Of a DNA stretch of 36,277 bases, positions 8,131 through 36,214 are shown piece by piece. The position numbers were made by a program, and so were the translations under genes. Below the pieces are notes generated by a model. That model was not told the origin of the DNA. It ran no database searches and saw only the letters and a list, made by a program, of their open reading frames with translations. The number at the start of each line of letters is the position of its first letter. Within the stretch, counting starts at the first letter, position 1. The DNA is from a virus: positions 1 through 36,277 of IMG/VR virus record IMGVR_UViG_3300042292_000548, one strand, 5' to 3'.

Positions 8131-8134
8131 GTAA

Positions 8135-9916
8135 ATGGCAAGAACTAATAATCCACAGATTGTAACTAAACCGGCATCTCTTCTTTTAGTTGGAGAGATT
8201 AGTCATACTTTGAGGGCACAGGGAAACCCTTTAGCTACTGGAATCGAGGTTAATGGAGCTTCCGATTCTCCCGTTGTTAGCGGAAAATGGGACGAAATAC
8301 CGCAGGCTCAAGTCGGCATACTAGACTACTCTTCCTTTACAGAACTTGCTGGAAAGTTTAAAGAAGGAGTTACTAATTCTAGTGGAATTGCGGATAGAAC
8401 TCCTTGGAATTTGGTTTCTGCTGTTTCATTGGATGCTATATTTTGTCCATATAACAATATCACCGATGGTTCTAGGGCTGGTCCATACATGCCATATTGG
8501 ACATCTCCATCAGGGTCTGTATCTTCGAATACTCCTTCTTCCACAACATTGAATCCATTCAATCCATTTAATCAATTATCTGGAATAAGTCCAAAAGGAC
8601 ATAGTGTCAGTAATGATCCATGGAGTTCTGGTGGTCATAATATATCAATGGCATTAAATTATAATCCATTAGATTCTGGAGTTAATGGAAGTGGCGGATA
8701 TGTTGGAGTAAATGGCCCATATCCTTCTGGTAGTGGTAGTCCCGTTGATTTATATTTTGAAAAGGATCACTGGGCAAGATCTACTGTAGAAGTTTCTGGA
8801 ATCAGGGGTGTTGGATTAAAATCTCCAATGGTATTAACCGGATGGGGGTATGACACAGATGGTAATCCTGTTCCGGGCAAGTCAGGCGATAAGACACAGT
8901 TTCATCCACAAGCAAGCTGGAATATGAATCTATGGAAGTCTGGTCCTGTGGATCTTAGGTGGGACAACGAAAGAGGTGTCTGGACGGGTGGTGGCGGAAA
9001 TACAACCAAAATGTATCTTGTAAAGATGACTAATTTGTATACGCCTCCTAGTTTCTCATTTGAAGTAGAAAGAAGTAATAGTAGAGATCAATATACTAGA
9101 AATGCTCCAACTTCTATTAGAACTTTTGATTCTACTGGAAATCTTTATGATCCAGAATATGTAGCATATCAAAATAATAGCAGTAATATAGGATATTATG
9201 AACAGCTTGACTATAATGGTTTAGAGTTTCCTTTTTATGAGGCTTACATCATTAGAGAAACAAATACTGATCCTGTATCAAGTAATGACTACTATAATAT
9301 TTGGACGAATGATTGTCAAGACTGCGGCCATATAACTAATTTTTGTTCAAGTGGACACAACTCATCTTCCACAAATAAGAAGATTTTGATTGAGAATCCA
9401 TTGAGACAATCTTTTGATGTGGGCGACTTGGCATTTACTGTTTATACTGGACGAACTAAAAAAGTCAATACCGGAACTTTTACTGGTGGAAATGGAGTTG
9501 GTGCTTCTGGAAAAATTACTGTTGATGCGAGTGGTAGAGCCTCATTTACGGTCTTATCTGCGGGAAGCGGATATACTACAGGAGGTTTTGGAATATCATC
9601 AACTGGCTGTAATGTATGCACAAATATCACACTTTCTTTTACTGGAAATGCCTTAACAGGAGCAACACTTTCTCCATCTGGAGGATTTACACCTAATCAA
9701 GAATGCAATATAAATATCTATCCAAATAATGCTACAGTTAATACAGAATCTTTACCAATACACTGGGTATTACAGGCAGAGTTCAAATCACAACAGGTTG
9801 TTACACATGTGGAATGTGATAATGGATTATTACAAACTTGCACAATGAAAATTCAAACACAGGGATACAAGACATGCGAATATTGTGGAGAGGATACTGC
9901 ACTTATCAATAACTAG
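8135..9916 (+). CDS. Virion protein with cysteine-rich C-terminal part
   Basis: 593 residues, beginning four bases after the hub-like gene. The N-terminal two thirds are Gly/Ser/Asn/Pro-rich and almost free of cysteine. From about residue 393 cysteines appear in pairs: NDCQDCGH, CSSGH, GCNVC, HVECDNG and a final CEYCGED, ten of the protein's eleven. Such spacing could bind metal or form disulfides. A Gly-rich beta segment (TVLSAGSGYTTGGFG) precedes the last pairs. The next gene, also cysteine-rich, opens with CYSCGKQC, so the two products may interact or share an ancestral module (inference). No enzyme motif is seen. A tail-tip or tail-fibre role is likely from position only. Confidence 0.45.
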   Translation: MARTNNPQIVTKPASLLLVGEISHTLRAQGNPLATGIEVNGASDSPVVSGKWDEIPQAQVGILDYSSFTELAGKFKEGVTNSSGIADRTPWNLVSAVSLDAIFCPYNNITDGSRAGPYMPYWTSPSGSVSSNTPSSTTLNPFNPFNQLSGISPKGHSVSNDPWSSGGHNISMALNYNPLDSGVNGSGGYVGVNGPYPSGSGSPVDLYFEKDHWARSTVEVSGIRGVGLKSPMVLTGWGYDTDGNPVPGKSGDKTQFHPQASWNMNLWKSGPVDLRWDNERGVWTGGGGNTTKMYLVKMTNLYTPPSFSFEVERSNSRDQYTRNAPTSIRTFDSTGNLYDPEYVAYQNNSSNIGYYEQLDYNGLEFPFYEAYIIRETNTDPVSSNDYYNIWTNDCQDCGHITNFCSSGHNSSSTNKKILIENPLRQSFDVGDLAFTVYTGRTKKVNTGTFTGGNGVGASGKITVDASGRASFTVLSAGSGYTTGGFGISSTGCNVCTNITLSFTGNALTGATLSPSGGFTPNQECNINIYPNNATVNTESLPIHWVLQAEFKSQQVVTHVECDNGLLQTCTMKIQTQGYKTCEYCGEDTALINN

Positions 9917-9924
9917 GAACATAT

Positions 9925-12900
9925 ATGGCTTTTATAACCAAGACGAATGATACGAAGTGTTATAGCTGCGGAAAACAATGTGTTAATGTTGAGTTCTGTT
10001 CTGCTGGTGCTAGTTATCATAATGACGATATAGGAACTCAAGGAATTTCTATATCTAGAAATATTCGGGTATCTATTACTGCTAATCCACAATTCTGGGG
10101 ATTTAGTGGAGTACTAATTTCTGGATGGGCAACATATTCTAACGGATACTACGATTTTTTTGATGGTTTTGACGAAGACTATAAAGCCGAGAAATCTTGC
10201 AATGAGGATGGTACTACCGTAACATACGGACCATTTTTTAATGAACAAAGACCTGACGTATTTTATAGATCAGTTTATGACCCCGACACTAGAATTTCTA
10301 AGCATTATTCCTCTATCGGATTAGAAGGAAGTGGTGCTGGTAGGGGAGGTGCGGAGGTATATCTTATAAATAGAACCGCCGGGCTAGTTGCTGGCGTTGC
10401 TTCAGACTTGCCATCATGTGCAACATCTAATCCTACTCAGATTTTTAAGCAATTTCCAGAAAACTTTGGATGGGGCAATAAGGTTAATTTCAATACCAAG
10501 ATTTACAAGAATCTTAGTGCCGCATGGAGATTGATCAGCTTAGAGAACTGTCATCAAACTCCCAATCTTTACGAGCCTGTTGGTTATTTAATAGATTGCT
10601 CTGGCAATGAAAAACAGAATATCAGATACAAACCTAATCAGTACGAGAATTATGAACCATCAAGATTAAGAGCTTCTGGTAGTTCATCTTATTACGATTA
10701 TAAATCCGGTTGTTATCCAGACGGTGCCGCAGCGGGAAAATACGCTGGATATTTTACCGAATCTAGTAGTATATATCGAAGTATAGCATCCTCTTCTTTT
10801 ATTCAAGCCCGACTATCATATGGATCATTTTCTGGTCCTGTTGCCGCTAGCGGTTTAAGGAATGGAATGACTATTGGTATTAAGAATGATGTGAGTGGAT
10901 CTTACAATAACGTATATACTATTTTTGATGTTACTCATTCTTCTACATTCACTTCTGTTAAGTTTATTGGATCGTCTACCGGAAACTCTCCTATAAACGG
11001 TATTCCGACTGGGGACTTTTCGCTTAGTATAGGAAAAAGCGGCCACTGGATTGCGTTTAATACGCAAGATCCACAGACATGTTGTGGGTTGAGTGCATAT
11101 GGAGTCTCTGATAGAGATAAACAGCTTTCAAGCTCTGCTAATTATCATACAGATTTTAGAAGAGTATTCAATAATCCAAAAAATATACTACAGTCAAATA
11201 GAGATAGACAATGGAGATATAACTATAATTCATTCGATACTATTGCTGCAATAAGTGGATTGTCCGGTTCTGGCAGATTAGATTATACATATCCGTCTGT
11301 TAGTGGCAATGGATATCCGGTCATAATTGAATCTGGTGGATCATATAAGATAGCTTCTGGAAATGTTCCAGTTACTGGATTTCCGCTTTTTGAAAAACAA
11401 TTTTCATACTATGGTAATTTTTTCAATACCGATCTATATGATAGTTTCAAGAGATTTGATCAGGTCTTAAATAGAGGAAAAGCCAGAAATGGAACATGCT
11501 ATAGTAAATATGCTTCATTAGAGATTTTTCCTGATTGCGTAACACAATATGATAGATACAACAAATGCGTTACAGAAACAGAAACCTATGTAACAAATAG
11601 AATTCCAAGACTAGCGTTTGTGTACAGAGGCTGTGACTTTAATGATGATTGTTCTTTTAATTCCAGTGGTCTTCCACTGGGAGGATGGAAAGATCAAGGA
11701 AATATTCCAACAGGAATAAATGACCTTAAAAGGCAGTTGGCTGGTCAAGAAGTACATATGTTCCTTAATCTCGGGAGTGCTTGGGGAGGTACAAAACCAT
11801 TAAGTCCATGCAGATGTGATTGTTCTGATACCATTGCTGGTCAAAGTCCTCCAGAGCATGTAGAGATACCAAGTCCGTTGACTTTTGCATCATTTCCTAA
11901 TTTTGATTTGAATCCAACGGGTTATGGATGTAAAGATCCGAGATATCAGGTGACCTATCGCCAACGAGAGCTTAATGGACTATTGTCCCAAAGTGGGGCT
12001 TGCGATCCATTTCCAACGTCCAACTATGCTTGTATGCCAAGGCAACCATATGTTACCTATGGTTATATCATGAACTTATGTGGAAAAGAGACAAAGGATA
12101 GAAAGAGCGTTATAACAGAAGCGTTCTCAAAACTACATCAAGATAAAACTTATACAAATGCGAATCCAACCGGCAACATTACAGAGCCAATGTATTGGAA
12201 TGTAATCGCACCAAAACCCCAGCCATTTGGAGGAGTTGCATGGTCTAGTGGATCTACTTCTACATATGATGGAGGTGGTTCTTTTGTTCAAGTTTCTGGA
12301 AGTGGATATGGATACTGGGGTTTAGCGGACGGTAATAAGCAAGTTATCGCCCCTTATTTTTGTACACAACAAAGCTCGTCTACTTGCTGCTCAAGCAGTG
12401 CAACTTATTTAGATTTCAATACTACTGGCACTCTAACAAATATACTTAATACCTCCAATGGCTGGCCTACATCCGCTGTTCCATTTTTAATAGAGTTAGA
12501 GGTAGACGATGCTTGTGTTGGGTGTGTCTCTACAAGCATGAAAAATACTACTCTTAATCTAGAGATAAATGGACTAGATAGCGAGTTTATATGGCAGCAA
12601 TTAGGAACTAGATATGGTCACAATTACTGTAAGTATGGATCTGCCGGATCTGCTGGCAAGGCCAAACTAGAGCCTTCCTTTACATGTTCTAGTGGATTTA
12701 ATCTATCAGCATGTGGCGGGGATTCTTTGAGAGCAACTCATGGCAGTTACTATACTGGAAATACATGCTCTTGTGTAAATGGATTGAATGTAACTCTATA
12801 TCCCGTAACAGTTCCAGAAGCTAGTGGTGTTATATTGGGCTGGACTAGTAATCAAATTGGAGGTGGTGCCGGTCTTACAGAAATTACCGGATGTAATGAT

Positions 12901-15900
12901 TTTGCCAGTGCTTATCTCGACGCTGATTATCTAAGAGCAGAAGGTGCTGGATATAGAATCTTTGCTCAATTTGATTTAGCATGTAATGATTTGCACCAAT
13001 ACTTAAATGATCCATACTTTCCAGATATATATTACGGAGGAAATCCTATTGGATTGATCTGGGGAAATTCAAGCCAATGCTCTCATCATTATCCAGCGAG
13101 AATCGGAGAAAACGGAGATTTAGATCTACAGACAACATTGTATTTAGTTGCTGAACAAAACGTTCCAATATTTAGAAAACTAACTGATCGTGGACTTAAA
13201 TATAAAGACTTTTCAACATGCTTAAATTCCAACGATTTTACTAGTGCTGTCAATCCGTTTGGAATTTGTCCCGGAGAAAGTGTTTATACATACGGATGTC
13301 AGCTTTCTTCGGCAAGCGGAACATATTTTTATGGATGCTATAATGCTGCCGGGTATGGTCCCGGAGCATATTTGGAATGTACCGGAGCTACTCTTTGTAA
13401 CACATGTCCAACAGGAACAGGTAGTGGAGAAGTAACATGTTCTTGTGGAAATGCAATAGGATATGAAGGAATTTCTCCAAGAAGAGTTCCCGCTAGTTAT
13501 CAATTAAATGAGTGTGATTGTAAGTGCAAAGATCCTTCATTAATTGCAAAATATACCTTAACCAGTACCGGTTTGGTTTTAGTGTCCGGATCAAGTGCCT
13601 CTTGTGCCAGCGTCTATTGGATGGGAACAGACTCAATAGCACCAACATTAATAAATTGTCCAACACCACAGCCATTTATTGGTATAAAGCTAGGATCTCA
13701 AATAAAGTCAACAGATTGGTATGATTGGAGTCATGGAATCAATGGGGTTGTCAGCGGAATAAGACATGAATTAAATTATCCATTCTTGAATACTCAAGAG
13801 TGTAATACTCTTAGGAGATATCCTTATACGGCTAGTACAAACGCTAGCAGTCTTGATTGTACTTTAAGCTCCGGAGATACGGGCTATTGTCAGGCTAATT
13901 CTACGGTAAATACAAAGACTTGTGGTAATCCTATCTATTCTAGCGGTTCTATTCCGACAGGAATGATTAAGGTACGAAAAAAGAAATGTCATCCAGAAGT
14001 TGCCATAGTTACTAAGATTGACTGTCTTGGTGACAGATACAAATTGTATATTTCTAGAGAATATCATGAGCATGATAGAACATGGTATGAGATAGTGGAA
14101 GGGTCTTGTTCTCCCGTGAATGCTGGTGCCTACGTGTACAATTATGGCTCTGGAGTTTCCGGATGTCAACAGATAAATTATGCTTCGCTAGCGGACACTG
14201 TGACTCCAGCTTATAATCCTCCTTGTAGTATCAATCCATCTTCGGGGATTTATGTTGGACAAGATTACAAATATCAGAATTCGTTATTTGCTTTAGGATC
14301 AAAAGTTTGGAATTATTTTAATCTATTCTACTCCAGCACCTTTTTACCAGCGGTTGCTAGCGGACATTTAATTCCATCAATGGCTAAGGTTAGCGGCGTT
14401 TTCAAATGCTCCGGAACTCCGATGACAATTAGAAATACGGGGACTGTTTTTTCAACTTCAGAATACTATAGTCCATCTGGATTTAATGGAATATTTGCAA
14501 CAAATAAGAAACATAGTTGTGTTCAAGACTCTACGGTTTGTGGAGGAGAACTATGGTGTAATAAGTTATTCTTTCCAAGACATAGCTATAAGTCTGGGAC
14601 TCGTATAGCTCCATTTGGATCTCCTACGATTTGCACAACTAACAACGAATTTAAAAATGCTGAATTGTATGGCTATACTGAAGATGGAGAATTAATTGCA
14701 GCAGGAAAAGACTTGCTGGATGAACAAAAATTAAGATTTGTTGATTGGTGTAATGACGACTTAGTTCAAGAATGTATTGGTGATATTGGTATAGATGATA
14801 CTGAAATTATTGTAGATAGTTATCTACCTCTAATTGGAGTTATACATCCCGGATGGAAGTTTACATCTGATGTAAAGAGTTGTACTGTTGGAGGAACCGG
14901 ATGTCAAGATACGATTCCGGTCCATACGAACTCGACTATTCAAATGGGTACTCATGAACCCAAGACATTTACTACAAATAGTTTTGAGTCTATGGGATAC
15001 TATCTAGACAAATTTGGAGTTTCCCATAATGGATCGTCAGGCATAATCAGTGCTAGTGGAAGCGATCAGTGTTTATTTAATCCATTCAAGATATTGATAG
15101 ATGTTGAATGTTCATTAAATAGAATAGGTCGCAAGGATTTTCCATCAGACCCACCAACCTTTTTACATGGAGTACAAACATGGCCTGTAGAATCTTGTCT
15201 AGGAATGGTTGGAGAGCCGGGCTGCAATTGTTCGAATACTAAGTGTGATTATGTAACTAATGTTAAAAAGGGAGATTGTACAGCTTTTGTAGGAACTTCT
15301 TATGAAGGAACATTAGTGACTGGAAAATACTGGTATTGTCCCAGCGGAGCAGAATGTAGTGGATGTGGACTGAGAAACTGCGAAGAAAGGGATGGTACTT
15401 ACATTAGGCTAGATGGACCTGTTGGTAAGTTTTTTGACTCGGCAGTATTAAATGGATCTACTGGTGCAATTGGACAATTACTTCCAACCCCAACTGTTTG
15501 TTATTGTCAGTCTGGAAGCGGTACAACATCTGGCGTTTTTGAAACTGCATCACCACTTATAGGATCATGGCTATTAAACTCTTGTGATGGAAAAGCATAT
15601 CAATTATTGGAAAATGGAACTAGATACTCTCGTAAGTGGATTTGTAATTCTAATCAGTATCTAAATAAACAACCAAGTGTTGGATATATGACCCTTTGTG
15701 AATGCGAGTCGGATCTAAATAATGGACTTTGTGACGCTCAGTATAGATGTTCAGATTTTTCAACCTGTGGATGTAATCCAGTGGGAACTGCTGGACAAGT
15801 GGTTCCAGCAATTAGCTCTATTGGATCTGGAGGAAGTGGAACTTGGTGGTCATCAGACTGTGGATGCGATGCATTGCCAATAGGCACCGGTCCATGCCAA

Positions 15901-15936
15901 CAAGATTCTTTGATACAATGGCAAATTACAGAATGA
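9925..15936 (+). CDS. Giant cysteine-rich tail protein, putative receptor-binding or adhesin
   Basis: 2003 residues; start ATG at 9925 with AGGA overlapping the previous stop (tAGGAacatat). Composition is dominated by Gly, Ser, Tyr, Asn and Thr, with about 92 Cys by manual count, spread along the whole length and often in close pairs: CYSCGKQC (N-terminus), CRCDCSD, NTCSCVNG, CNTCPTG, CDCKCKD, CNCSNTKC, CYCQSG, CECESD, CGCDALP (C-terminus). There is no signal peptide, membrane helix or collagen-like repeat. The last and largest gene of a tail module is normally a fibre, spike or adhesin, and the composition fits an exposed beta-rich protein. Whether the cysteines bind metal or form disulfides after lysis cannot be read from sequence. 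It ends at a TGA directly abutting the stop of the convergent gene. Confidence 0.5.
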   Translation: MAFITKTNDTKCYSCGKQCVNVEFCSAGASYHNDDIGTQGISISRNIRVSITANPQFWGFSGVLISGWATYSNGYYDFFDGFDEDYKAEKSCNEDGTTVTYGPFFNEQRPDVFYRSVYDPDTRISKHYSSIGLEGSGAGRGGAEVYLINRTAGLVAGVASDLPSCATSNPTQIFKQFPENFGWGNKVNFNTKIYKNLSAAWRLISLENCHQTPNLYEPVGYLIDCSGNEKQNIRYKPNQYENYEPSRLRASGSSSYYDYKSGCYPDGAAAGKYAGYFTESSSIYRSIASSSFIQARLSYGSFSGPVAASGLRNGMTIGIKNDVSGSYNNVYTIFDVTHSSTFTSVKFIGSSTGNSPINGIPTGDFSLSIGKSGHWIAFNTQDPQTCCGLSAYGVSDRDKQLSSSANYHTDFRRVFNNPKNILQSNRDRQWRYNYNSFDTIAAISGLSGSGRLDYTYPSVSGNGYPVIIESGGSYKIASGNVPVTGFPLFEKQFSYYGNFFNTDLYDSFKRFDQVLNRGKARNGTCYSKYASLEIFPDCVTQYDRYNKCVTETETYVTNRIPRLAFVYRGCDFNDDCSFNSSGLPLGGWKDQGNIPTGINDLKRQLAGQEVHMFLNLGSAWGGTKPLSPCRCDCSDTIAGQSPPEHVEIPSPLTFASFPNFDLNPTGYGCKDPRYQVTYRQRELNGLLSQSGACDPFPTSNYACMPRQPYVTYGYIMNLCGKETKDRKSVITEAFSKLHQDKTYTNANPTGNITEPMYWNVIAPKPQPFGGVAWSSGSTSTYDGGGSFVQVSGSGYGYWGLADGNKQVIAPYFCTQQSSSTCCSSSATYLDFNTTGTLTNILNTSNGWPTSAVPFLIELEVDDACVGCVSTSMKNTTLNLEINGLDSEFIWQQLGTRYGHNYCKYGSAGSAGKAKLEPSFTCSSGFNLSACGGDSLRATHGSYYTGNTCSCVNGLNVTLYPVTVPEASGVILGWTSNQIGGGAGLTEITGCNDFASAYLDADYLRAEGAGYRIFAQFDLACNDLHQYLNDPYFPDIYYGGNPIGLIWGNSSQCSHHYPARIGENGDLDLQTTLYLVAEQNVPIFRKLTDRGLKYKDFSTCLNSNDFTSAVNPFGICPGESVYTYGCQLSSASGTYFYGCYNAAGYGPGAYLECTGATLCNTCPTGTGSGEVTCSCGNAIGYEGISPRRVPASYQLNECDCKCKDPSLIAKYTLTSTGLVLVSGSSASCASVYWMGTDSIAPTLINCPTPQPFIGIKLGSQIKSTDWYDWSHGINGVVSGIRHELNYPFLNTQECNTLRRYPYTASTNASSLDCTLSSGDTGYCQANSTVNTKTCGNPIYSSGSIPTGMIKVRKKKCHPEVAIVTKIDCLGDRYKLYISREYHEHDRTWYEIVEGSCSPVNAGAYVYNYGSGVSGCQQINYASLADTVTPAYNPPCSINPSSGIYVGQDYKYQNSLFALGSKVWNYFNLFYSSTFLPAVASGHLIPSMAKVSGVFKCSGTPMTIRNTGTVFSTSEYYSPSGFNGIFATNKKHSCVQDSTVCGGELWCNKLFFPRHSYKSGTRIAPFGSPTICTTNNEFKNAELYGYTEDGELIAAGKDLLDEQKLRFVDWCNDDLVQECIGDIGIDDTEIIVDSYLPLIGVIHPGWKFTSDVKSCTVGGTGCQDTIPVHTNSTIQMGTHEPKTFTTNSFESMGYYLDKFGVSHNGSSGIISASGSDQCLFNPFKILIDVECSLNRIGRKDFPSDPPTFLHGVQTWPVESCLGMVGEPGCNCSNTKCDYVTNVKKGDCTAFVGTSYEGTLVTGKYWYCPSGAECSGCGLRNCEERDGTYIRLDGPVGKFFDSAVLNGSTGAIGQLLPTPTVCYCQSGSGTTSGVFETASPLIGSWLLNSCDGKAYQLLENGTRYSRKWICNSNQYLNKQPSVGYMTLCECESDLNNGLCDAQYRCSDFSTCGCNPVGTAGQVVPAISSIGSGGSGTWWSSDCGCDALPIGTGPCQQDSLIQWQITE

Positions 15937-21699: not shown

Positions 21700-23345
21700 T
21701 TGGTATCCTTTTCTACAATTTTAGACCTGTCTCCTCTAACATCTTCACAGACGTTATAATTTTGAAGTCTGCTTTCAAATAACTTAATTATCTCTTGTCT
21801 AGTTATTGGTCTAGGTCTATTTGAAGAATATGGAGAAAACTCACTAACATAAAAATTATCAAAAGATCCTTTTGTGACTCCTCGTTGTAAATCAGTCAAC
21901 ATAGTTCTATAGAAATGGGATCTCTTATGTGGCGGATAATAGGTGAATACATTGAATACATCCTCCATGAACGCATAGTTGGATGGATTCTCTATATTTA
22001 TCTTTTGAGGCTGTATGATCTTTGGAGGCTGTTTCCAGTCTGCGTATTCGCATTCATCGATAACCTTCATCCATTCTTTTGCTGATTCTTCCCAGCTATA
22101 ATTAGTTTCAAATAGATTTCTAGTTTCTTTACGCTTCTCTAGCCTTTCTTCTTCGGATAAAGAAAAGAAGTGTGTGAATATCCCCGTCATAGATTCTCTA
22201 CTGGGGACGGCTCTATTACATCCAGTCTCTAATTCTTTATAGTAAGAGTAGCTTATTGGATATGCACCAAGCTTCTTTACAACGTCTTCCATTGCAGAAT
22301 AGTTTGTGCAGGCTATTGGAGTTCCACACGCCGCAGCTTCTACTTGAGGAAGTCCAAATCCTTCTGAGTTGGCTGGCTGAACATATAGATCGAACACATT
22401 GTATATCTTTGCTAAGACCTCATCTGACACTCCATTTCCAACATTGGCGGGACTAGAAGCATACTGCTTACATGATCCGCATACCTTCTTGATATCTCTG
22501 AAGAATGATGGTTCTACATGCTTGCAATTTTCACAAACATATGTCATTATGACTCTAGAGGAAATCTCATTTTCATGAAACAATTCTGCTAGATTCCATC
22601 CGGCATCGGGGAAGCTGGTGTGAAGATAAAGATAAGTATTATTCAGATTATTAGTCTTTATGTAGTCACTAAAAGACTCTATCAAAGCGGGGAATAACTT
22701 CCTTCTTTGATTTCTCATAACGGTTCCGACGATATTGATATCGTCACGTAGATTAAACTCACTTCTGATTTTTTGTCTATCAAGAGGAATAAATACAGGA
22801 GAGGCTGACGGAGAGGAAACGCCTCTAGTATTTATTGTGCTTCCGCCCTGTTGTTCTAGAATTGACTTAGCCCAATCAGAATATGTTAGTATATATTCCG
22901 CATCCGCAAACATATCTATCCATTCCTGATTTTGTGGCATAGCGTCTACAGTTGGCATCCATGCCCAAGAAAATATTCTACGATATGGAGAGTGATAAAT
23001 GAATGAATCCATCCAAAAATCTCTAATCGTTAGAACAATATCTGGCTCAAAATCTAGACATACTCTTTCAAATCTCCATGCTCCAAACTGATTTGCCGGA
23101 TTAGAGTTGTATAAATTTCCCTGCTGCTCATCATTATTGCTTGGTAGATTGCAATAATTTTTCCAAGGTATTGATGCCCTTCTTGGATCGTCAGGACTTC
23201 CATAAATGGAAAACTCTGCTATATCGTAATTCTTAGTATTGAATATCCTTGAGATAATTTCTTTACTATATTTTGCATATCCAGTATTGAGATATGCGGC
23301 TTCTGATATAAACAGAACCTTCTTCTTTTTATGTTTACTAGACAT
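21684..23345 (-). CDS. Glycosyltransferase family 4 with inserted zinc ribbon
   Basis: 553 residues, larger than a typical 350-400-residue GT4. N-terminal Rossmann domain opens KKVLFISEAAYLNTGYAKYS, where the Gly loop binds the acceptor side. The donor-binding domain includes INIVGTVMRNQRRKL at about 204 and NSEGFGLPQVEAAACG at 327-341, the E-x7-E signature of retaining GT4 enzymes (E328, E336). Between them lies C271-x2-C274 and C289-x2-C292, a zinc ribbon not usual in GT4. A ~110-residue C-terminal extension follows. It overlaps the sigma-factor gene by eight bases. The acceptor, whether virion protein, DNA or a cell-surface sugar, is unknown. Family assignment is strong. Confidence 0.85.
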   Translation of the reverse strand: MSSKHKKKKVLFISEAAYLNTGYAKYSKEIISRIFNTKNYDIAEFSIYGSPDDPRRASIPWKNYCNLPSNNDEQQGNLYNSNPANQFGAWRFERVCLDFEPDIVLTIRDFWMDSFIYHSPYRRIFSWAWMPTVDAMPQNQEWIDMFADAEYILTYSDWAKSILEQQGGSTINTRGVSSPSASPVFIPLDRQKIRSEFNLRDDINIVGTVMRNQRRKLFPALIESFSDYIKTNNLNNTYLYLHTSFPDAGWNLAELFHENEISSRVIMTYVCENCKHVEPSFFRDIKKVCGSCKQYASSPANVGNGVSDEVLAKIYNVFDLYVQPANSEGFGLPQVEAAACGTPIACTNYSAMEDVVKKLGAYPISYSYYKELETGCNRAVPSRESMTGIFTHFFSLSEEERLEKRKETRNLFETNYSWEESAKEWMKVIDECEYADWKQPPKIIQPQKINIENPSNYAFMEDVFNVFTYYPPHKRSHFYRTMLTDLQRGVTKGSFDNFYVSEFSPYSSNRPRPITRQEIIKLFESRLQNYNVCEDVRGDRSKIVEKDTKWLAS

Positions 23346-23811
23346 TGTTTTTTCTATCCATTCTATTTTTCATTGTACATAGTAACTTAGATACTTTGTT
23401 TGGCGTTATATCTAGTTTTGAAGCAATGCTCTTATTGGTATCTCCATTAATCTTGAGTTTTAATATATTCCTCTCAAGTTCTGTCTTAGCACAGAAGAAG
23501 TTATTGTAATCTAGACATGACAGATCTTCGTTTTCGTAGCTAAGATTTCTATTTTCAGAATATAGTAACTCGCCTTGTATCTTATTCGACTTAATAAACT
23601 TTAGCATATCATTTCTAACACAATGTGTTATAAAAGTTGATACCTTGCCTCTAGTTTCATCATATTTATGTCCGCTCTTACACAAGGCTAAGAATCCGAC
23701 TTGTATCAGATCTTCTTTACTAAAGAGCTTATTTTCTCGATATATAGAGTTAGCTATGCTATAGACTAGTCTCTGGTTATCCTCAATCATCTTTTCAACT
23801 TTACTGTCCAT
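23338..23811 (-). CDS. Sigma-70-family RNA polymerase sigma factor
   Basis: 157 residues from the ATG at 23811, two bases after the upstream TGA and with AGGA ten bases upstream; a TTG two codons earlier is possible. Region 2 is clear: NQRLVYSIANSIY, then KEDLIQVGFLALCKSGHKYD and KVSTFITHCVRNDMLKFIK, the core-binding and -10-recognition helices. The C-terminus (LERNILKLKINGDTNKSIAS, followed by KLDITPNKVSKLL) is a region-4 helix-turn-helix for -35 recognition. The short length is that of a phage or sporulation-type sigma with regions 2 and 4 only. It would redirect host RNA polymerase to phage promoters, most likely the late (tail) arm. Confidence 0.85.
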   Translation of the reverse strand: MDSKVEKMIEDNQRLVYSIANSIYRENKLFSKEDLIQVGFLALCKSGHKYDETRGKVSTFITHCVRNDMLKFIKSNKIQGELLYSENRNLSYENEDLSCLDYNNFFCAKTELERNILKLKINGDTNKSIASKLDITPNKVSKLLCTMKNRMDRKNNV

Positions 23812-23813
23812 AT

Positions 23814-24110
23814 TCAATTGTTCCTATTCATGATTTTGAACTCATTAATCCTAAAACAAACACTACCTTCGCTTTTCCTAGCAGTAGAATTTATGACTAG
23901 TAAGTAATCGTCTAGCCTCAAATTTTGATGCAATGTTAAGGCGGCGGTTCCCCATGCCTCAAATAAGAGTCTCTCATAATCTATCTTCTTAACTCCATTC
24001 ATCTTCCGTTTGTTTTCAATATCTAGGACCAAAACGATCCTCTCTGTTTCACCTTCAAAAGCGTAGAAGTCCCATTGCTTTACTTTTCCTAAAAATGTAC
24101 ACTGATTCAT
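23814..24110 (-). CDS. SSB-like OB-fold protein
   Basis: 98 residues, ATG at 24110 with AGGA six bases upstream. The order MNQCTFLGKVKQWDF, then IVLVLDIENKRK, LLFEAWGTAAL, a helix, DDYLLVINSTARKSE and VCFRINEFKIM copies the strand pattern of SSB proteins (N-terminal strand, AWG-type segment, 'V-x-G-x-L', final strand). There is no acidic SSB C-terminal tail; it ends KIMNRNN. It lies next to the polymerase genes, which fits ssDNA binding in replication. An OB-fold protein of another role remains possible. Confidence 0.55.
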   Translation of the reverse strand: MNQCTFLGKVKQWDFYAFEGETERIVLVLDIENKRKMNGVKKIDYERLLFEAWGTAALTLHQNLRLDDYLLVINSTARKSEGSVCFRINEFKIMNRNN

Positions 24111-24118
24111 ATCAATTC

Positions 24119-25672
24119 CTAAATTACAAAAATCTTGTCAACAATGAACGAATTCTTCTTCTTATCTTTGATTTCGCCGGATATCAATACGGTAGCCCTT
24201 TCATACATTATATCTTTGTTTTGCTCGTATATATCGGGAAAAACTACGATATTTTCTAGCTCACCAGAATCATCTTCTACTGAGAGAAATGCCATACAAT
24301 CGCCATTCTTTGTCTTGTATTCCTTTAGCCTTTTTATCATAACGGCAAGAATAGAATTATCGCTCTTGCCATCGGCCACTTCTTTACAGGTGGCATTTGC
24401 ATGTGCAGCACCAGAACACGCATTTAACTCAGAATGGTTGATCGAATAGCTGAGTAGTTGCTCCTCTATCTTAGCATAAACTACGGAATTGTCAAGCAGG
24501 CTACGGCCTGGACTATTAACCCTAACTAATATATTCTCTATCTTCTCTAGCCTGTTTTGAGTAGAAATTCCCCCGCCTTGTTTCTTAGTTCCAAGAGAGA
24601 TTATCTTAGATAATAATTCAGAGATATTTGTATTAGTAGTATCAAAATTACTAACTATATAGGAAATCTCTTTATCTGTTAATTCCATCATACAGTGGTA
24701 TTCATGTAACATTTCACTTCTAGACTTGCCAAGTCCAGTAAACGCCCCAACACTGATTAGGTTTTCTATTGCTCTCTTGTTTATATTTGGAAGTATATTT
24801 ATGAGGATATTGGTCCAGTTCATCTTTTCTTGGGGGAGATCCGCAAAGCTTTTCTTTAGTTGTTCTAGATGAGCAGAGCCTACATTCTTGACATTACAAA
24901 TACCAAAACAAATTGCATTGTCATGCCATGAAAAATTATCTTCAAGGAGCTTTATGTTTGGACCGCGAACATTAATACCTTCTGATTTAGCGGCCATAAT
25001 AAGCTGTCTTTTTTCAAAATCGGGATCTACCTTCTCATCAGCGTTCCTTAGCCAATTCTTGAAGAACTTCTTATTGTAATAGCATTTTACCCATGCAGAC
25101 CAATATGCCATCATGGAGTATGCAACTCCATGTGATTTATTGAACGAATATCTTGCAGACTTTTCAATCATATTAAAGATTTCAATAGCTTTCTCTTCTT
25201 CTATATTGTTCTGTATAGAGCCTTCAAGAAATTTTACACGAATCTCTTTCATGAGATCGGCCTTCTTCTTGCCAATTGCTTTTCGAAGATCGTCCGCTTC
25301 TCTTAATGAAAATCTAGCCATTTTAACAGCAATTTCCATTGCTTGTTCCTGATATACAATAACGCCATAGGTTTCTTTTAATAGATCATCAATCAATGGA
25401 TGTAAGCTTGGAATCTCTTCCCTTCCAAATTTACGGTCAACGAAATGTTGTGTCATGGATTTTCCATCAACTATAACTTTTAGACACCCTGGCCTAATTA
25501 CGCTGATAAGTGCTGCTAGCTCTGTTATATTTTGAGGTTTTACATTTTTAGACCACGTTTTGCCAAGATAGCTTTCTATTTGGAAACAGCCCTTAACTCT
25601 TCCCTCTCCGATCATCTCCCAGACCTTGGGATCATCTTCTGGAATTTGGGTTATATCAATTGGAAAACGCAT
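24119..25672 (-). CDS. dnaE: DNA polymerase III alpha, C-terminal part (fingers to OB fold)
   Basis: 517 residues. The protein starts with the segment that follows the third catalytic Asp in DnaE: ITQIPEDDPKVWEMIGEGRV, then GCFQIES, VIRPGCLK, YGVIVYQEQAMEIA, LRKAIGKKK and YSFNKSHGVAYSMMAYWSAW, all fingers-domain signatures. A helix-hairpin-helix-like part (INKRAIENLISVGAFTGLG) follows at about 300, and an OB fold near the C-terminus (ILAVMIKRLKEYK, FLSVEDDSGELENIVVFPD). It contains no catalytic Asp triad, PHP or exonuclease domain, and so must pair with the N-terminal part. The ATG overlaps the exonuclease stop by 17 bases. No intein-like sequence was found at its start. Confidence 0.88.
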   Translation of the reverse strand: MRFPIDITQIPEDDPKVWEMIGEGRVKGCFQIESYLGKTWSKNVKPQNITELAALISVIRPGCLKVIVDGKSMTQHFVDRKFGREEIPSLHPLIDDLLKETYGVIVYQEQAMEIAVKMARFSLREADDLRKAIGKKKADLMKEIRVKFLEGSIQNNIEEEKAIEIFNMIEKSARYSFNKSHGVAYSMMAYWSAWVKCYYNKKFFKNWLRNADEKVDPDFEKRQLIMAAKSEGINVRGPNIKLLEDNFSWHDNAICFGICNVKNVGSAHLEQLKKSFADLPQEKMNWTNILINILPNINKRAIENLISVGAFTGLGKSRSEMLHEYHCMMELTDKEISYIVSNFDTTNTNISELLSKIISLGTKKQGGGISTQNRLEKIENILVRVNSPGRSLLDNSVVYAKIEEQLLSYSINHSELNACSGAAHANATCKEVADGKSDNSILAVMIKRLKEYKTKNGDCMAFLSVEDDSGELENIVVFPDIYEQNKDIMYERATVLISGEIKDKKKNSFIVDKIFVI

Positions 25673-26342
25673 CTTTGAAATTCTTTCTTGCTGCTGTGGC
25701 TCTTAACATCTTCATAGTTCGACAAAATAGTTCTGCTGTCATTATTACGTCGCCCATGGCATCATGAGCTTGACCCTTTGCATATCCCATATAACCTCTA
25801 ATAAGATTATCGGCAGATAGAGAGTTTACATCCTTATTATTTTCAAACATGGCAAACATAAAGTCTAGCATGTCTATGCTATGGATTCTATTAAACAGAT
25901 CCTGCTCTCCTCGTTTTGAATCAACGGGGCCAAACTTATATGGAGGACTAGTACATAATCTATTTACTATAATGGAATCGAATCCCTTTATATTATAGCC
26001 GACCGAGATCGGGGCACTCCAGTTACCACCTTTAAAGTTGAACTGGTTCACGTAATCTGTAAAGTTTTTCCATACAGATTCTGCACTAGGTGCATCTTGT
26101 AGGATTTCTTCAGTCTTCCCGTGAACGGCAACGGCACCATCTTCTAGGGGGTCTATCCCTAGAGCGGCACATTTATCTTTGTCAAATATTGGCTTAATAA
26201 GAGACTGAAACTCTGAGCCTTCTTTGATCTCAAGCTTTCTTCCGTGAACAACAACAGCGGCTATTTGCACCGGCTGAGTCGTATAGGGATTAGCACTAGT
26301 TGTTTCAAAATCGTATACGATATAGTCCCTATAGTTCATCAT
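25656..26342 (-). CDS. DnaQ-like 3'-5' exonuclease (DEDDh)
   Basis: 228 residues. Motif Exo I is YDFETT near residue 10; Exo II lies at GYNIKGFDSIIV around 115; Exo III is HDAMGDVIMTAEL near 193-205, with His and Asp in the DEDDh spacing. It overlaps the stop of the polymerase N-part by 14 bases and the start of the C-part by 17, so it is translated between the two halves. The position indicates a proofreading subunit of that polymerase. Compare PolC, where an exonuclease lies inside the polymerase chain, and E. coli, where it is a separate subunit. Confidence 0.88.
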   Translation of the reverse strand: MMNYRDYIVYDFETTSANPYTTQPVQIAAVVVHGRKLEIKEGSEFQSLIKPIFDKDKCAALGIDPLEDGAVAVHGKTEEILQDAPSAESVWKNFTDYVNQFNFKGGNWSAPISVGYNIKGFDSIIVNRLCTSPPYKFGPVDSKRGEQDLFNRIHSIDMLDFMFAMFENNKDVNSLSADNLIRGYMGYAKGQAHDAMGDVIMTAELFCRTMKMLRATAARKNFKDAFSN

Positions 26343-28176
26343 TAACCTCTTTAATTGTTTCTGCCAACTTTTTTAAACATGACACACCTAAAATATCAAA
26401 CTTTACACCACCTATAGCCTCAAGATCACCCATTTCCATTCCTGCAATTTGCTCTGAACCTCTTGAGGATTTTACCATAGGACATATCTCTTCTAGAACT
26501 TCTGATGAGATAACTACCCCGGCTGCATGTTTGCCTTTAGTTTTAAATATTCCTTCCATACGCATAGCTTGCTGAAAAACTTTTGCGTACTCTCCCTGTA
26601 GCTCATTATTATCGTCTAGCCAGCAATAGTCAATCAGGGAGTCTCTATCATTCTCTAATGCCCATCTAATAACTGATGGATCTTCCATATCTTCAAGAAG
26701 ATCGGAAATTGCCGCTTCGTTTGGAATCTTTTCTGTGATTGCGTTCATCACATCAAAACTACAAGATTCATTAACTCTCAGGATTTCTTTGATTATAGAC
26801 TTGCCAGCGAGCCTTCCAAATGTTATCATCTGACATACTTTAGTTTCTCCATATTTATCCTTTAGATACTGAATAACTTCCTCCCGATAATCTGGAGGAA
26901 AGTCTACGTCAATATCTGGAAGTGAAATATGATCTTCTGTATTTCTTCCGTCATTATAGAATCTCTCAAAGAGAAGTCCATACTTTATGGGATCAATTAA
27001 TGTAATACCCGTTAGATAACAAACTAGTGATCCACCACCAGAACCTCTTCCCGGCCCGATTAGACATCCTTTATTCCTAAAGTGATTTACATAATCTTGA
27101 ACAATGAGAAAATATCCCGGCAGTTTGGCATTATCGATAACTTGCAATTCTTTCAAGACCCTGTCTTTATAGATATCATGTTTAGACTTATCTATCTTAT
27201 CAGCGATTAGTTTTTTCCAGCCATTCCTACATAGCTGTTTCAGATATTCATTTTCTGATGAATTATCTGGGGTTTTGAATGTGGGAAGCTTTGGATTAGA
27301 AAGGATATTTAGGTCTTCGACTAGTAGTGTAATCGATTGTAGATTTTCTAGGGACTGAGGCTTATATCTCTCTTTAAGATACTCAGGATCTTTGATATAA
27401 TAGTTACTACTCTTGATAAACTTGAGGGAGTCTAGGTCTTTTTTCTCTAGTATCTTCTGATCAAGTTTCCTCATGGTGGTCTTGAGCTTAGTACAAATAA
27501 TTACCCTGTGATCAACAGCATCGTGTCTTTGCGGGTAAAAAGAGCTTGTGTCGGGGATAGTAATCTTGCAGTCTGGATCTACGCCAAATATGATATCTTG
27601 CATGATCCTAGTAACAGGATATGATTCATGATCAGTGGCGTTGTACTCAAGATAGTAATTCTTGAATTTACTTGTCATGAACGATACGTGATGAGAAGCT
27701 ATATTGTTGGCATCTTCGGCTAAACAAGACTCTATGGAATCTCCATCAAAAGAGTGAAATATGCACTCGGTATTTGGAAGTACTAAAGAGAATAGTTTGC
27801 TTCCGACGAATCCATCTATGCAGACAAAATTATCACAATCAATATTGCTTAGTAGATCGTCAAGTTTTATCTTTGGCTCATCATCAAAATTATCCAAGTT
27901 ATTAGCAAGAGATATGATTTTTAGCAACTGCTTCCATGCATTGTAGTTCTTGCAAATCAGAACCAGTCTAGAGTTATCATCAAGAATGATCTCTGACCCT
28001 AGGATCGGCTTGATGCCCGCTTTTTTACAGCACTGTATAAAATTGACACAGCCACTGATGGTGGCAATATCCGTTATACCAGCATGTGTATATCCGTAAT
28101 CGCCACATATCTTTACTATTTGCTTAGAGCGAGAAGTTGAAGATAAGAGTGAATAATGACTATGATTTCTCAGCAT
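26329..28176 (-). CDS. dnaE: DNA polymerase III alpha, N-terminal part (PHP and palm)
   Basis: 615 residues. The PHP region (1-65) contains HSHYSLLSS, GITDIATISG and KPILGSE. The palm includes GPGRGSGGGSLVCYLTGI from 374 and PDIDVDFPPDYREEV, which gives catalytic D421 and D423 (E. coli D401 and D403). VKFDILGVS at 591-599 gives D594 (E. coli D555). The protein ends 21 residues later at VNDEL-stop. All three metal-binding Asp are therefore here, but fingers, HhH and OB domains are absent and encoded by a second gene after the exonuclease. The PHP looks degenerate: the usual T-D-H is T-D-I. It overlaps the Cas4-like gene by 17 bases. Confidence 0.9.
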   Translation of the reverse strand: MLRNHSHYSLLSSTSRSKQIVKICGDYGYTHAGITDIATISGCVNFIQCCKKAGIKPILGSEIILDDNSRLVLICKNYNAWKQLLKIISLANNLDNFDDEPKIKLDDLLSNIDCDNFVCIDGFVGSKLFSLVLPNTECIFHSFDGDSIESCLAEDANNIASHHVSFMTSKFKNYYLEYNATDHESYPVTRIMQDIIFGVDPDCKITIPDTSSFYPQRHDAVDHRVIICTKLKTTMRKLDQKILEKKDLDSLKFIKSSNYYIKDPEYLKERYKPQSLENLQSITLLVEDLNILSNPKLPTFKTPDNSSENEYLKQLCRNGWKKLIADKIDKSKHDIYKDRVLKELQVIDNAKLPGYFLIVQDYVNHFRNKGCLIGPGRGSGGGSLVCYLTGITLIDPIKYGLLFERFYNDGRNTEDHISLPDIDVDFPPDYREEVIQYLKDKYGETKVCQMITFGRLAGKSIIKEILRVNESCSFDVMNAITEKIPNEAAISDLLEDMEDPSVIRWALENDRDSLIDYCWLDDNNELQGEYAKVFQQAMRMEGIFKTKGKHAAGVVISSEVLEEICPMVKSSRGSEQIAGMEMGDLEAIGGVKFDILGVSCLKKLAETIKEVNDEL

Positions 28177-29173
28177 TGTCTAGCTTACCTCCTCCGCTTC
28201 CATACTGTCCAAATTTTTTCAGGTCCGCATGCTTATCGACCACGGCAGTCATACCCTCTGATTTTATCAGATCGTGAAAGTGCTTGCAAGTGGTCTTATT
28301 TGATCCCGGAAGTTGTTCAGAGAACTTACATAGCTTTGTACATTTCCAGTGAGATTGATCATTAGATAAAAGTTTTGGTAATTGAACAGACTTGATATAT
28401 TCAAATTTGTCCTTTAGCATCTTCTCTGCTTTGTGATAATCTTCTTCTGAAAATACAATATCAAAAAGCCCACCGTCATTTATATAGTAGATACTAGTAT
28501 AGAAGTCATGATCGGGATACATATTCTTTAATGCATAGAAGTATAATAGGAGTTGCTTATCCGAGCATAAATCTTCATAGGTTTTCTCTTGTCCTGTCGC
28601 CCAGTTCAATCTTTTACCAGACTTATAATCAAGAACCTGATAGTATGAATCATTTTCTTTTATGATTAAGTCTATGGTTCCTTTTATTGATAGGTATCCA
28701 GAGAACTCTTTACCATTCACATTGTATGAATATTGTGCCCAAGGTTTCTTGATCTCTATGTCGAAGAATAGCTCTGTAGCATGTACGTTTTGATTTCTAG
28801 GATCAAGTGCCCCATCATTATATGCTAGAGCCTTGTATGCCCATTTTACACAGGTCTTATAGTCTGATTCATCCAGACCAACATCCTCCTCATGTTTCTT
28901 GTAGTACTCAAAACATAATTTAGTTACATATTCTATATCATCACATTGGGCAAACGTAAGATTCTTGATATCATCATTTTTCAGATTCTTGCATTTGTTG
29001 TTTTGGGCTATTTTCTTATCGGCAAGAACTTGCATCACACGATGGAGAATCGTACCAAGGACTGCCTTTTTTCCGGTTTTATCTTTCATTCCGAGAACAT
29101 ACTGGAAGAAGTATTTCATTTCGCACATCTCTAGTGTACCTAGCGATGAGCTACGATGGAAACATATAATCAT
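28160..29173 (-). CDS. Cas4/RecB-like PD-(D/E)XK nuclease, probable Fe-S
   Basis: 337 residues. The nuclease core has GTILHRVMQ with H44, GTIDLIIKE with D168, then QVLDYKSGKR with D182 and K184 and SDKQLLLYFYAL with Q207, the order of RecB/Cas4 nucleases. C17 in LGTLEMCEMK at the N-terminus and C278, C282 and C296 at the C-terminus could ligate a 4Fe-4S cluster as in Cas4 and AddB, although the final spacing (C-x3-C-x13-C) is not standard. It overlaps the dNMP kinase by ATGA. No CRISPR array or cas1/cas2 is present, so a role in replication or recombination (DNA-end resection) is more likely than spacer capture. Confidence 0.82.
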   Translation of the reverse strand: MIICFHRSSSLGTLEMCEMKYFFQYVLGMKDKTGKKAVLGTILHRVMQVLADKKIAQNNKCKNLKNDDIKNLTFAQCDDIEYVTKLCFEYYKKHEEDVGLDESDYKTCVKWAYKALAYNDGALDPRNQNVHATELFFDIEIKKPWAQYSYNVNGKEFSGYLSIKGTIDLIIKENDSYYQVLDYKSGKRLNWATGQEKTYEDLCSDKQLLLYFYALKNMYPDHDFYTSIYYINDGGLFDIVFSEEDYHKAEKMLKDKFEYIKSVQLPKLLSNDQSHWKCTKLCKFSEQLPGSNKTTCKHFHDLIKSEGMTAVVDKHADLKKFGQYGSGGGKLDNAEKS

Positions 29174-34165: not shown

Positions 34166-36214
34166 TCAGAGCATTTCTTTTACTTGTTTCTTGATGAGAT
34201 CGAATATATCTTTTCTCTCAACTAAGAAGTCGTATATCTTGGATTGGCCTTGAAATTTTGGAGATTCGTCAAAGCCATGAGTCTTATCTAGAAAGGGAAT
34301 ACTATACCAAGCTCCACCCTTTTCGATAATCCCAAATGATTCTGCTAGCTCTATAATCTCTTTCTCTTTATCGATTCCCTTATTGTATTTGATATAGCTG
34401 ATACAGTCTGTTCCAGATGAGCCAAGTGATGAACATCCTACTCTCCAATGCACTAACTGTCCAACCTTTTTACTATTTTCTTCCCACGGTTCAATTTTCG
34501 TTATATCCATTCTTGTGTCAGCTTGATACTGAACCATTGTTCCACAATCTGGAACTTTGACTTTACCATATCCAGAAGTATTGGTAATATAATGCGTAAT
34601 GATAACTACAATTATCTTGTTCTTTACAACGTTTTGTGCATTCTTCTTAATCCAGTGTGCTAGTAGTTTTGGCAGAGATGCACGAATTGTAGCAGAAGAA
34701 CTCTCTTCTAGTTCTGATCTTGGAACTAAAGAAGAACATGAGTCTATAATGCATACTGCACCATTATTTTCTGGTCGCTTGAAAAGACTTTCTGCAATGT
34801 CAAGAAAATCTTCTGCTGATAAAGATTCTGAATCTTCTGGACTATGAACTATCTGAATCTTATCTAGATCTAGACCATGAGTTCCAGATAGATTATAAGC
34901 CTTAAGTCTGCTTTCTCCATCTATATAGATTACCGGTCTGCCTTCATCTTGAGCGTTTTTGCATATTTGCAGACAAGTTGTGCTATTATGAGTTACTACA
35001 AAATTATTTGTCAGATAGAGATGATCATTATTATCTAGCTCTATGCATCTACATTCCTCTGATCTTACAACCTCTACTTTTCTTATTGTTCTAAAAAGAT
35101 CCCCCTTTATTCTTTTGTGATCAATCTTTTTTCTAGTTATAGAGAATAGTTTTGATATATCATTTCCAGATATATGTACTCTATATGATGGAAATACTTT
35201 TCCATCACATTTAGTTGTACGATATTTGATTTTTCCTGTATATCCTAGAGATTGAATAATTTCAACAAAATCATATGCTAATTTTTCTGATACGGTAGTA
35301 TATTCAGCCACTTTACCAGAATCATTATATCCGTCTGTGTCCATTAATCCATTAATAACGGAATATCTGACATCAATAGAGTTATATTTATAGATGTCTG
35401 GAATGAATTTATAATGTGAAGTCAATCCAAATAGCTTAAGTTTTTTTAGATCCTGAACAATTGAATTACGATACTTGGATTCGCCAGATATACGATAGCT
35501 TATGCCGTCTTTTGTAATACGTTTGAGCTTCAATTCTCGATTATTGCATTCCTGTTGAAACTTAGTAAGTATCTCTTCATCTATATTTGTAAATATTGCA
35601 GATCCTGCTGAAATTCCTCCATCTCCAAGTATTGCACCTAAGATATAGGGATCGATAGGAACATCTTGAGTATAGAATTGAACTTCTTTTGTTAGTTGTA
35701 TTTTGAATCTTGGTCTGTCAGAATAAAACAGGCCCGCATCAAGAATCTCACGAAGAGAAAGTACTATTTCCGAATCAGATCTACCATGGTAATTTATTCC
35801 AACTTTCCATAGATGATCTAAACCACATTCTGCATATGTTCCATCATTGAAATGAACCCTGTATACATCCTTTGTTCCATTTAGATGAACTGCTTTAACT
35901 TTTGCTGTATTTCCATCAGGAGTACATACAATATCTCCAAGATTAATTTCACCCATTAGTTTGGGTCCATTTGGAGTATAAACAATAGCAGAAACGGGTT
36001 GTTCTTTACCAGTCTTTGGATCTCCAGAAACTATGACCCAGCTACCTTCTAGAAGTCCTCCATTCAAAGCAATATCTAGTGCTGGACTGACTGTGAGAGT
36101 TTTCAGATTCTTCTTAACAGAAATTAGTTCAGAACCTTTCGAGATTACTTTTCCAAATGCTTTTTGTATTGCCTTATCATTACTTAAATCAAGTTTTTTC
36201 TTGTCTTTAGACAT
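34166..36214 (-). CDS. uvsX: UvsX/RecA-like recombinase precursor containing an intein
   Basis: 682 residues; start ATG at 36214, with GAAGGA about ten bases upstream, three bases after the stop of the partial upstream gene. The host protein is residues 1-70 plus 411-682 (342 residues after splicing). Walker A is GDPKTGK (64-70) joined to STT (411-413): the intein interrupts it exactly before the P-loop Ser. Walker B is AVCIIDSCSSL (486-496). LPKLLAHWIKKNAQNVVKNK, the strand IIVVIITHY and CGTMVQYQADTRMDI follow RecA order (the L2 region and core). It drives strand invasion in phage recombination and recombination-dependent replication. Unspliced protein would lack a working P-loop. Confidence 0.9.
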   Translation of the reverse strand: MSKDKKKLDLSNDKAIQKAFGKVISKGSELISVKKNLKTLTVSPALDIALNGGLLEGSWVIVSGDPKTGKEQPVSAIVYTPNGPKLMGEINLGDIVCTPDGNTAKVKAVHLNGTKDVYRVHFNDGTYAECGLDHLWKVGINYHGRSDSEIVLSLREILDAGLFYSDRPRFKIQLTKEVQFYTQDVPIDPYILGAILGDGGISAGSAIFTNIDEEILTKFQQECNNRELKLKRITKDGISYRISGESKYRNSIVQDLKKLKLFGLTSHYKFIPDIYKYNSIDVRYSVINGLMDTDGYNDSGKVAEYTTVSEKLAYDFVEIIQSLGYTGKIKYRTTKCDGKVFPSYRVHISGNDISKLFSITRKKIDHKRIKGDLFRTIRKVEVVRSEECRCIELDNNDHLYLTNNFVVTHNSTTCLQICKNAQDEGRPVIYIDGESRLKAYNLSGTHGLDLDKIQIVHSPEDSESLSAEDFLDIAESLFKRPENNGAVCIIDSCSSLVPRSELEESSSATIRASLPKLLAHWIKKNAQNVVKNKIIVVIITHYITNTSGYGKVKVPDCGTMVQYQADTRMDITKIEPWEENSKKVGQLVHWRVGCSSLGSSGTDCISYIKYNKGIDKEKEIIELAESFGIIEKGGAWYSIPFLDKTHGFDESPKFQGQSKIYDFLVERKDIFDLIKKQVKEML
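34985..36004 (-). mobile_element. Intein in UvsX P-loop, class 3-type, with LAGLIDADG homing endonuclease
   Basis: 340 codons (precursor residues 71-410). The intein begins with Glu (EQPVSAIVYTPNG), not Cys or Ser, and ends THN before Ser+1. The Trp-Cys-Thr set of class 3 inteins is visible: W136 two residues after the block B His (LDHLW), C390 at block F (CRCIELD) and T408 just before the final His-Asn. In class 3 inteins the block F Cys starts splicing. Two LAGLIDADG motifs are present: YILGAILGDGGIS (190-202) and VINGLMDTDGYND (286-298), each with its acidic residue, so the endonuclease looks intact. The insertion splits the conserved P-loop codons, typical of homing sites. Confidence 0.9.

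Follow-up and report, generated by a model that had tools for sequence, protein, structure and literature searches.

A DnaE-type DNA polymerase III alpha subunit encoded by two separate genes, with an exonuclease gene at the break, in a group of mostly uncultured tailed phages

The DNA polymerase III alpha subunit (DnaE) of Escherichia coli is a single chain that works with a separate DEDDh exonuclease, epsilon (DnaQ), and the dnaE and dnaQ genes are not joined. PolC of the Firmicutes, also a C-family polymerase, has its own DEDDh exonuclease within the N-terminal region of its one chain. Replicase genes in two pieces are found in the cyanobacterial split DnaE, the halves of which are ligated by inteins, and in the split-intein 'fractured genes', the gap of which may hold an endonuclease gene. 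In jumbo phage group 2.2, a split minimal Pol III alpha has been reported to be encoded by distant genes in the presence of PolB (Iyer et al. 2021, PMC7824862). Here we analyze a stretch of viral DNA of 36,277 nucleotides (IMG/VR record IMGVR_UViG_3300042292_000548, hereafter the window), for which it had been proposed, in an original prediction made from its letters, that alpha is split into two genes (N-part and C-part) with a proofreading-type exonuclease gene in the gap. Both the Pfam and TIGR00594 content of the three genes (Table 1) and their recurrence in 107 loci bear this out.

The window polymerase presents the domain order and catalytic Asp residues of E. coli alpha, a similarly degenerate PHP domain and a separate DEDDh exonuclease, but it is not one chain, the exonuclease gene is joined to those of the polymerase, and the phage C-part stops after the OB fold. 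Its matches to PolC profiles are far weaker than those to DnaE, and a broken PolC can be ruled out on the basis of the PolC profile score (62.9 bits against a cut-off of 1043) and of the separate exonuclease gene. In cyanobacteria the break falls elsewhere and is flanked by the intein halves that the window lacks. Jumbo group 2.2 is alike in that a phage Pol III alpha is made as two proteins thought to reconstitute the enzyme. However, group 2.2 has only the catalytic core, PolB co-occurs, and the break is at a different site that, in the wording of that report, separates the nucleoside triphosphate (NTP)- and Mg-binding parts (PMC7824862); the window retains the PHP, HhH and OB domains that group 2.2 has lost, and no PolB was found in 12 large relatives. 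A phage Pol III alpha in two pieces is thus already known from that report, although the passages found in two surveys of bacterial polymerases, from 2013 (PMC3919608) and 2026 (PMC12926913), contain no example of one. For the exact N-exonuclease-C order, to which the initial remark was confined, we found no earlier description in the open-licence literature.

Table 1. Genes and sequence features of the split polymerase locus and its neighborhood in the window.
Feature	Position	Strand	Basis
N-part of DNA polymerase III alpha (PHP, palm, thumb; Asp D421, D423, D594), 615 amino acids	26329-28176	-	Pfam PHP and DNA_pol3_alpha; TIGR00594 4-572; Foldseek DnaE 2hpi, E 2e-26
DEDDh 3'-5' exonuclease gene in the gap, 228 amino acids	25656-26342	-	Pfam RNase_T, 8.6e-16; PHROG 192 'DNA polymerase exonuclease subunit'; DxE, N..FD and HDAxxD conserved
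C-part of DNA polymerase III alpha (fingers, HhH, OB fold), 517 amino acids	24119-25672	-	Pfam DNA_pol3_finger and HHH_6; TIGR00594 579-1021; Foldseek DnaE 7pu7, E 1e-20
N-part/exonuclease gene overlap, 14 bases (11 from second ATG)	26329-26342	-	Open reading frame coordinates; spacing in relatives
Exonuclease/C-part gene overlap, 17 bases	25656-25672	-	Open reading frame coordinates; spacing in relatives
AAGAGG, Shine-Dalgarno-like for exonuclease, within 3' end of N-part gene	26346-26351	-	Junction sequence; GAGG conservation
PD-(D/E)XK (Cas4-like) exonuclease gene upstream of N-part, 17-base overlap with N-part	28160-29173	-	Pfam PDDEXK_1; same position in L001-L023 (close relatives)
98-amino-acid protein, family unassigned, just downstream of C-part	23814-24110	-	Same position in many of L001-L023
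Sigma factor gene, beyond the gene of the 98-amino-acid protein	23338-23817	-	

The two halves cover consecutive and non-overlapping portions of the 1022 positions of TIGR00594. When aligned by profile with E. coli alpha, the N-part stops at residue 573 and the C-part begins at residue 584, leaving only some 6-10 DnaE positions uncovered, so that, as foreseen, the halves make up a nearly complete alpha in which the C-part continues the N-part. This complementary coverage rules out a C-part that is a repeat or a paralogue of the N-part. The PHP, palm, thumb, fingers, HhH and OB domains follow in the DnaE order in complementary pieces according to Pfam, TIGR00594 and PDB profiles, the OB fold giving only a weak Pfam match. 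All three catalytic Asp residues lie in the N-part and are invariant across 12 aligned relatives; the third, as first read, stands within VKFDILG and is followed by the last 21 residues of the N-part. By the published domain limits, residues 574-583 of E. coli alpha are at the start of the fingers; hence the break is in the palm-fingers loop (residues ~574-583) and leaves the catalytic triad intact. An active site divided between two polypeptides, in the sense first proposed, is therefore not supported, since what the break separates is the fingers from the palm. Modeled alone, each half resembles the corresponding part of DnaE, with a mean predicted local distance difference test score (pLDDT) of 73.7 for the N-part (best Foldseek match 2hpi) and of 79.8 for the C-part (best match 7pu7).

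A search of viral contigs with the N-part, exonuclease and C-part yielded hundreds of relatives, here designated by L numbers. The N-exonuclease-C order, on one strand and in three open frames, was found in 107 distinct viral loci spanning the region, with identities down to ~42% (L101, in which the exonuclease match is in two pieces, was left out of this count), and the continuous frame expected of a single-chain alpha was found in none of the 107. The sharing of the same three frames by related loci rules out an assembly or sequencing error, which had been a concern at the outset. The proportion of nonsynonymous differences (pN, ~0.09-0.23) against a near-saturated synonymous proportion (pS) in the N-part, exonuclease and C-part alike indicates that amino-acid change has been selected against in each of them, the signal being strong for both polymerase halves. 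Wherever the fission holds there is a single C-part match per contig, except in L023, the C-part of which is cut again near residue 280 into two overlapping frames (8473-10034), so that alpha would be three chains. Only three contigs from metagenome-assembled genomes (MAGs; Flavobacteriales, SAR202-labelled and Chitinophagia), possibly misbinned phage, carry the arrangement, and tblastn gave no match to the exonuclease in cultured phages. Terminase_6N matches above cut-off in G008, G009, G011 and the MAG record behind L236 are consistent with tailed phages. Since 12 contigs of the group (96-244 kb, possibly incomplete) gave no PolA or PolB match, the split alpha is probably its replicase.

Taken together, we assign a probability of about 0.8 to the view that the gene of a DnaE-type replicase has undergone genuine fission in this large group of tailed phages, most of them uncultured, with non-covalent reassembly and proofreading in trans. 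The chain would be cut in the palm-fingers loop, each part would be a protein of its own encoded by one of two adjacent genes, and the two would reassemble into an active polymerase by way of the extensive contacts that palm and fingers make in a normal alpha. The DEDDh exonuclease would then act as a proofreading subunit in trans, in the manner of E. coli DnaQ, and in the window's clade it would stand in for the degenerate PHP domain. Assembly, polymerase activity, physical association of the exonuclease with the polymerase and expression from one transcript are, in this reading, predictions from the gene sequences. Several points weigh against this interpretation. No match to the beta clamp (PF02768) was obtained in the 12 large contigs, possibly incomplete, which raises the question of processivity; the structure models are of single halves and of moderate confidence (predicted TM-scores of 0.63 and 0.54); and the exonuclease is unlinked and far from the polymerase in the L138/L243 group, so that adjacency is no proof of a complex. 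The close linkage seen elsewhere could reflect the clustering of replication genes and not co-assembly.

The gene might also be split and the enzyme whole, if trans-splicing inteins, RNA splicing or ribosomal bypass led to covalent rejoining of the halves. Inteins and homing endonucleases are indeed present in these genes of close relatives, and the fingers of L020 and L242 contain split-intein-like halves, but the break itself makes such rejoining very unlikely. In agreement with the original prediction, intein halves were not found there in any locus examined: N-parts terminate ~20-45 residues past the third Asp and C-parts carry only a short leader, which rules out a split intein of the cyanobacterial DnaE type, as there is no intein-N after the N-part and no intein-C before the C-part. 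The gene overlap in the window leaves no space for an intron, and a search of the region surrounding the window locus with Rfam gave no match at an E threshold as loose as 0.1; in nine related loci, searched at the gathering threshold only, Rfam returned a tRNA and nothing else, a divergent intron being possible inside the larger insertions of relatives. Finally, the relative frames of the N-part and exonuclease genes vary among relatives, which argues against a conserved frameshift fusion. Non-covalent assembly of the two parts is hence the best explanation left. The many insertions, deletions and breaks in the polymerase genes of the group might instead suggest that at least one of the halves is a remnant and that the phage relies on the host replicase or on another polymerase; given the strong selection on both halves, the invariant catalytic residues and the lack of PolA or PolB matches in the 12 large contigs, we regard this as very improbable.

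The same loop is cut in a cultured phage, Rossellomorea phage phiT1 (PV767480), in which gp20 ends ...KFDLLGLKTLKVIQNSVDQINQGVAV and gp18 begins MFDILDIPLDDAKT. As in the window, DnaE is encoded by separate adjacent genes without intein halves and there is no PolA or PolB match, but the gap holds an open reading frame of 50 amino acids in place of the exonuclease gene, and no RNase_T match was found in phiT1. This is the sole annotated record with the same break, and its pieces are labelled as two polymerase III alpha subunits. Because phiT1 lies outside the window clade, which has 100% support in the tree, its break is probably independent and the loop has probably been cut twice. Cellulophaga phage phi13:1 (Cbastvirus) likewise has DnaE in two adjacent genes, but the cut precedes the DIDVDF motif and the gap holds no exonuclease gene. 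The L242-L245 group is continuous across the palm-fingers junction and cut near the phi13:1-type site, before DIDVDF, with the exonuclease away from the polymerase, in a slot syntenic with that of L138. In a quick tree this group nests, on a long branch, within the split clade (the approximately unbiased test disfavoring a single clade of the split rows at p 0.017); re-fusion, two fissions or tree error are possible causes.

Regarding the exonuclease, its catalytic D, E, D, H and D are among the invariant alignment columns, but its scores are below the DnaQ/epsilon family cut-offs (TIGR00573, 26 bits against 71.5; PRK05711, 28 against 196). It is therefore best viewed as a member of the DEDDh superfamily that would work like DnaQ, orthology to DnaQ not being supported. 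The PHP motifs of the window's clade are degenerate (LRNHSHYS and TDIAT, against LHLHTHYS and TDHG in canonical relatives), as are those of E. coli alpha (LRVHSDYS and TDFTN), and in L168-type N-parts, which retain a single frame, the domain is both degenerate and shortened, its middle (~residues 100-206) being missing. Given this degeneration, the separate exonuclease seems likelier than PHP to be the proofreader in the window. Most distant relatives, on the other hand, retain a canonical PHP (LHxHTHYSLLDG, TDHG) with which many of them may proofread, and this, together with the distance between exonuclease and polymerase in L138/L243, would fit an unrelated nuclease that came to lie in the break by chance. 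We deem such a coincidence unlikely, because the same gene occupies the same break in 107 loci, its best-scoring PHROG is the DNA polymerase exonuclease subunit and its solved relatives include the PolC exonuclease domain. The opposite extreme, an obligate three-chain replicase with an exonuclease that bridges the break between palm and fingers, aids the co-translational assembly of the two parts and is mutually dependent with them, appears decidedly doubtful. The exonuclease is not required for the break to be tolerated, since phiT1 has the same break without it and L138/L243 keep it elsewhere. A C-terminal tail motif of the exonuclease, [KN]F[KE]xxF (mostly ending in AF or SF; window 25656-25690, - strand), is kept throughout the family and may be a contact peptide for the polymerase or the clamp.

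If the fission is as proposed, these phages would provide a natural and conserved example of Pol III alpha in two chains, which seemingly works without an intein and is probably the sole replicase of many uncultured phages. The palm-fingers loop would be a site at which C-family polymerases can be cut, the fingers as a separate subunit becoming testable, and the fission of a gene for an essential enzyme would have been retained and not purged.

Insertions are concentrated in the polymerase genes of the group and include an endonuclease VII gene between exonuclease and C-part (L009), a LAGLIDADG gene inside the N-part (L022), a GIY-YIG-type gene before the N-part (L008), an intein with HNH in the C-part (L012) and, also in the C-part, split-intein-like halves around an endonuclease-type gene (L020, L242). 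In L242/L234 and L020 the fingers part has a further break near RYSFNK/SH, where intein-like halves are present and the gap holds an endonuclease-type gene, an arrangement that resembles the fractured genes. It is plausible that the fission arose through such a mobile element, but this is a conjecture, because there is no trace of an inserted element at the N/C break of the window.

The gene overlaps had been put at 14 and 17 bases, which matches the open reading frame coordinates. However, the exonuclease start common to most relatives is the second ATG of the window (26339), downstream of AAGAGG, and the first overlap is therefore probably 11 bases. Together with this shared start, the location of AAGAGG inside the N-part gene suggests translational coupling; GAGG is retained in L001, L003, L005 and L027 and altered in L008 and L009. 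The N-part and exonuclease genes overlap in the window's clade, but are ~180-230 nucleotides apart in many distant relatives, and with coupling thus variable the predicted 1:1:1 production of the three chains is unsupported. In L064, L069, L035, L042 and L168 this gap contains small open frames that are ~55-75 codons long and belong to two or more different kinds.

Beyond the replicase locus, the 98-amino-acid protein has no Pfam or PHROG match, and neither do four large + strand genes (872, 576, 1245 and 593 amino acids) within window positions 44-9916, which are followed by a fifth large gene, of 2003 amino acids, at 9925-15936. The RecA gene of the window (34166-36214, - strand) presents a LAGLIDADG homing-endonuclease stretch (residues 285-352) ahead of the RecA match and probably carries an intein, and the PHROG terminase and primase matches at this gene are likely to be intein cross-matches.

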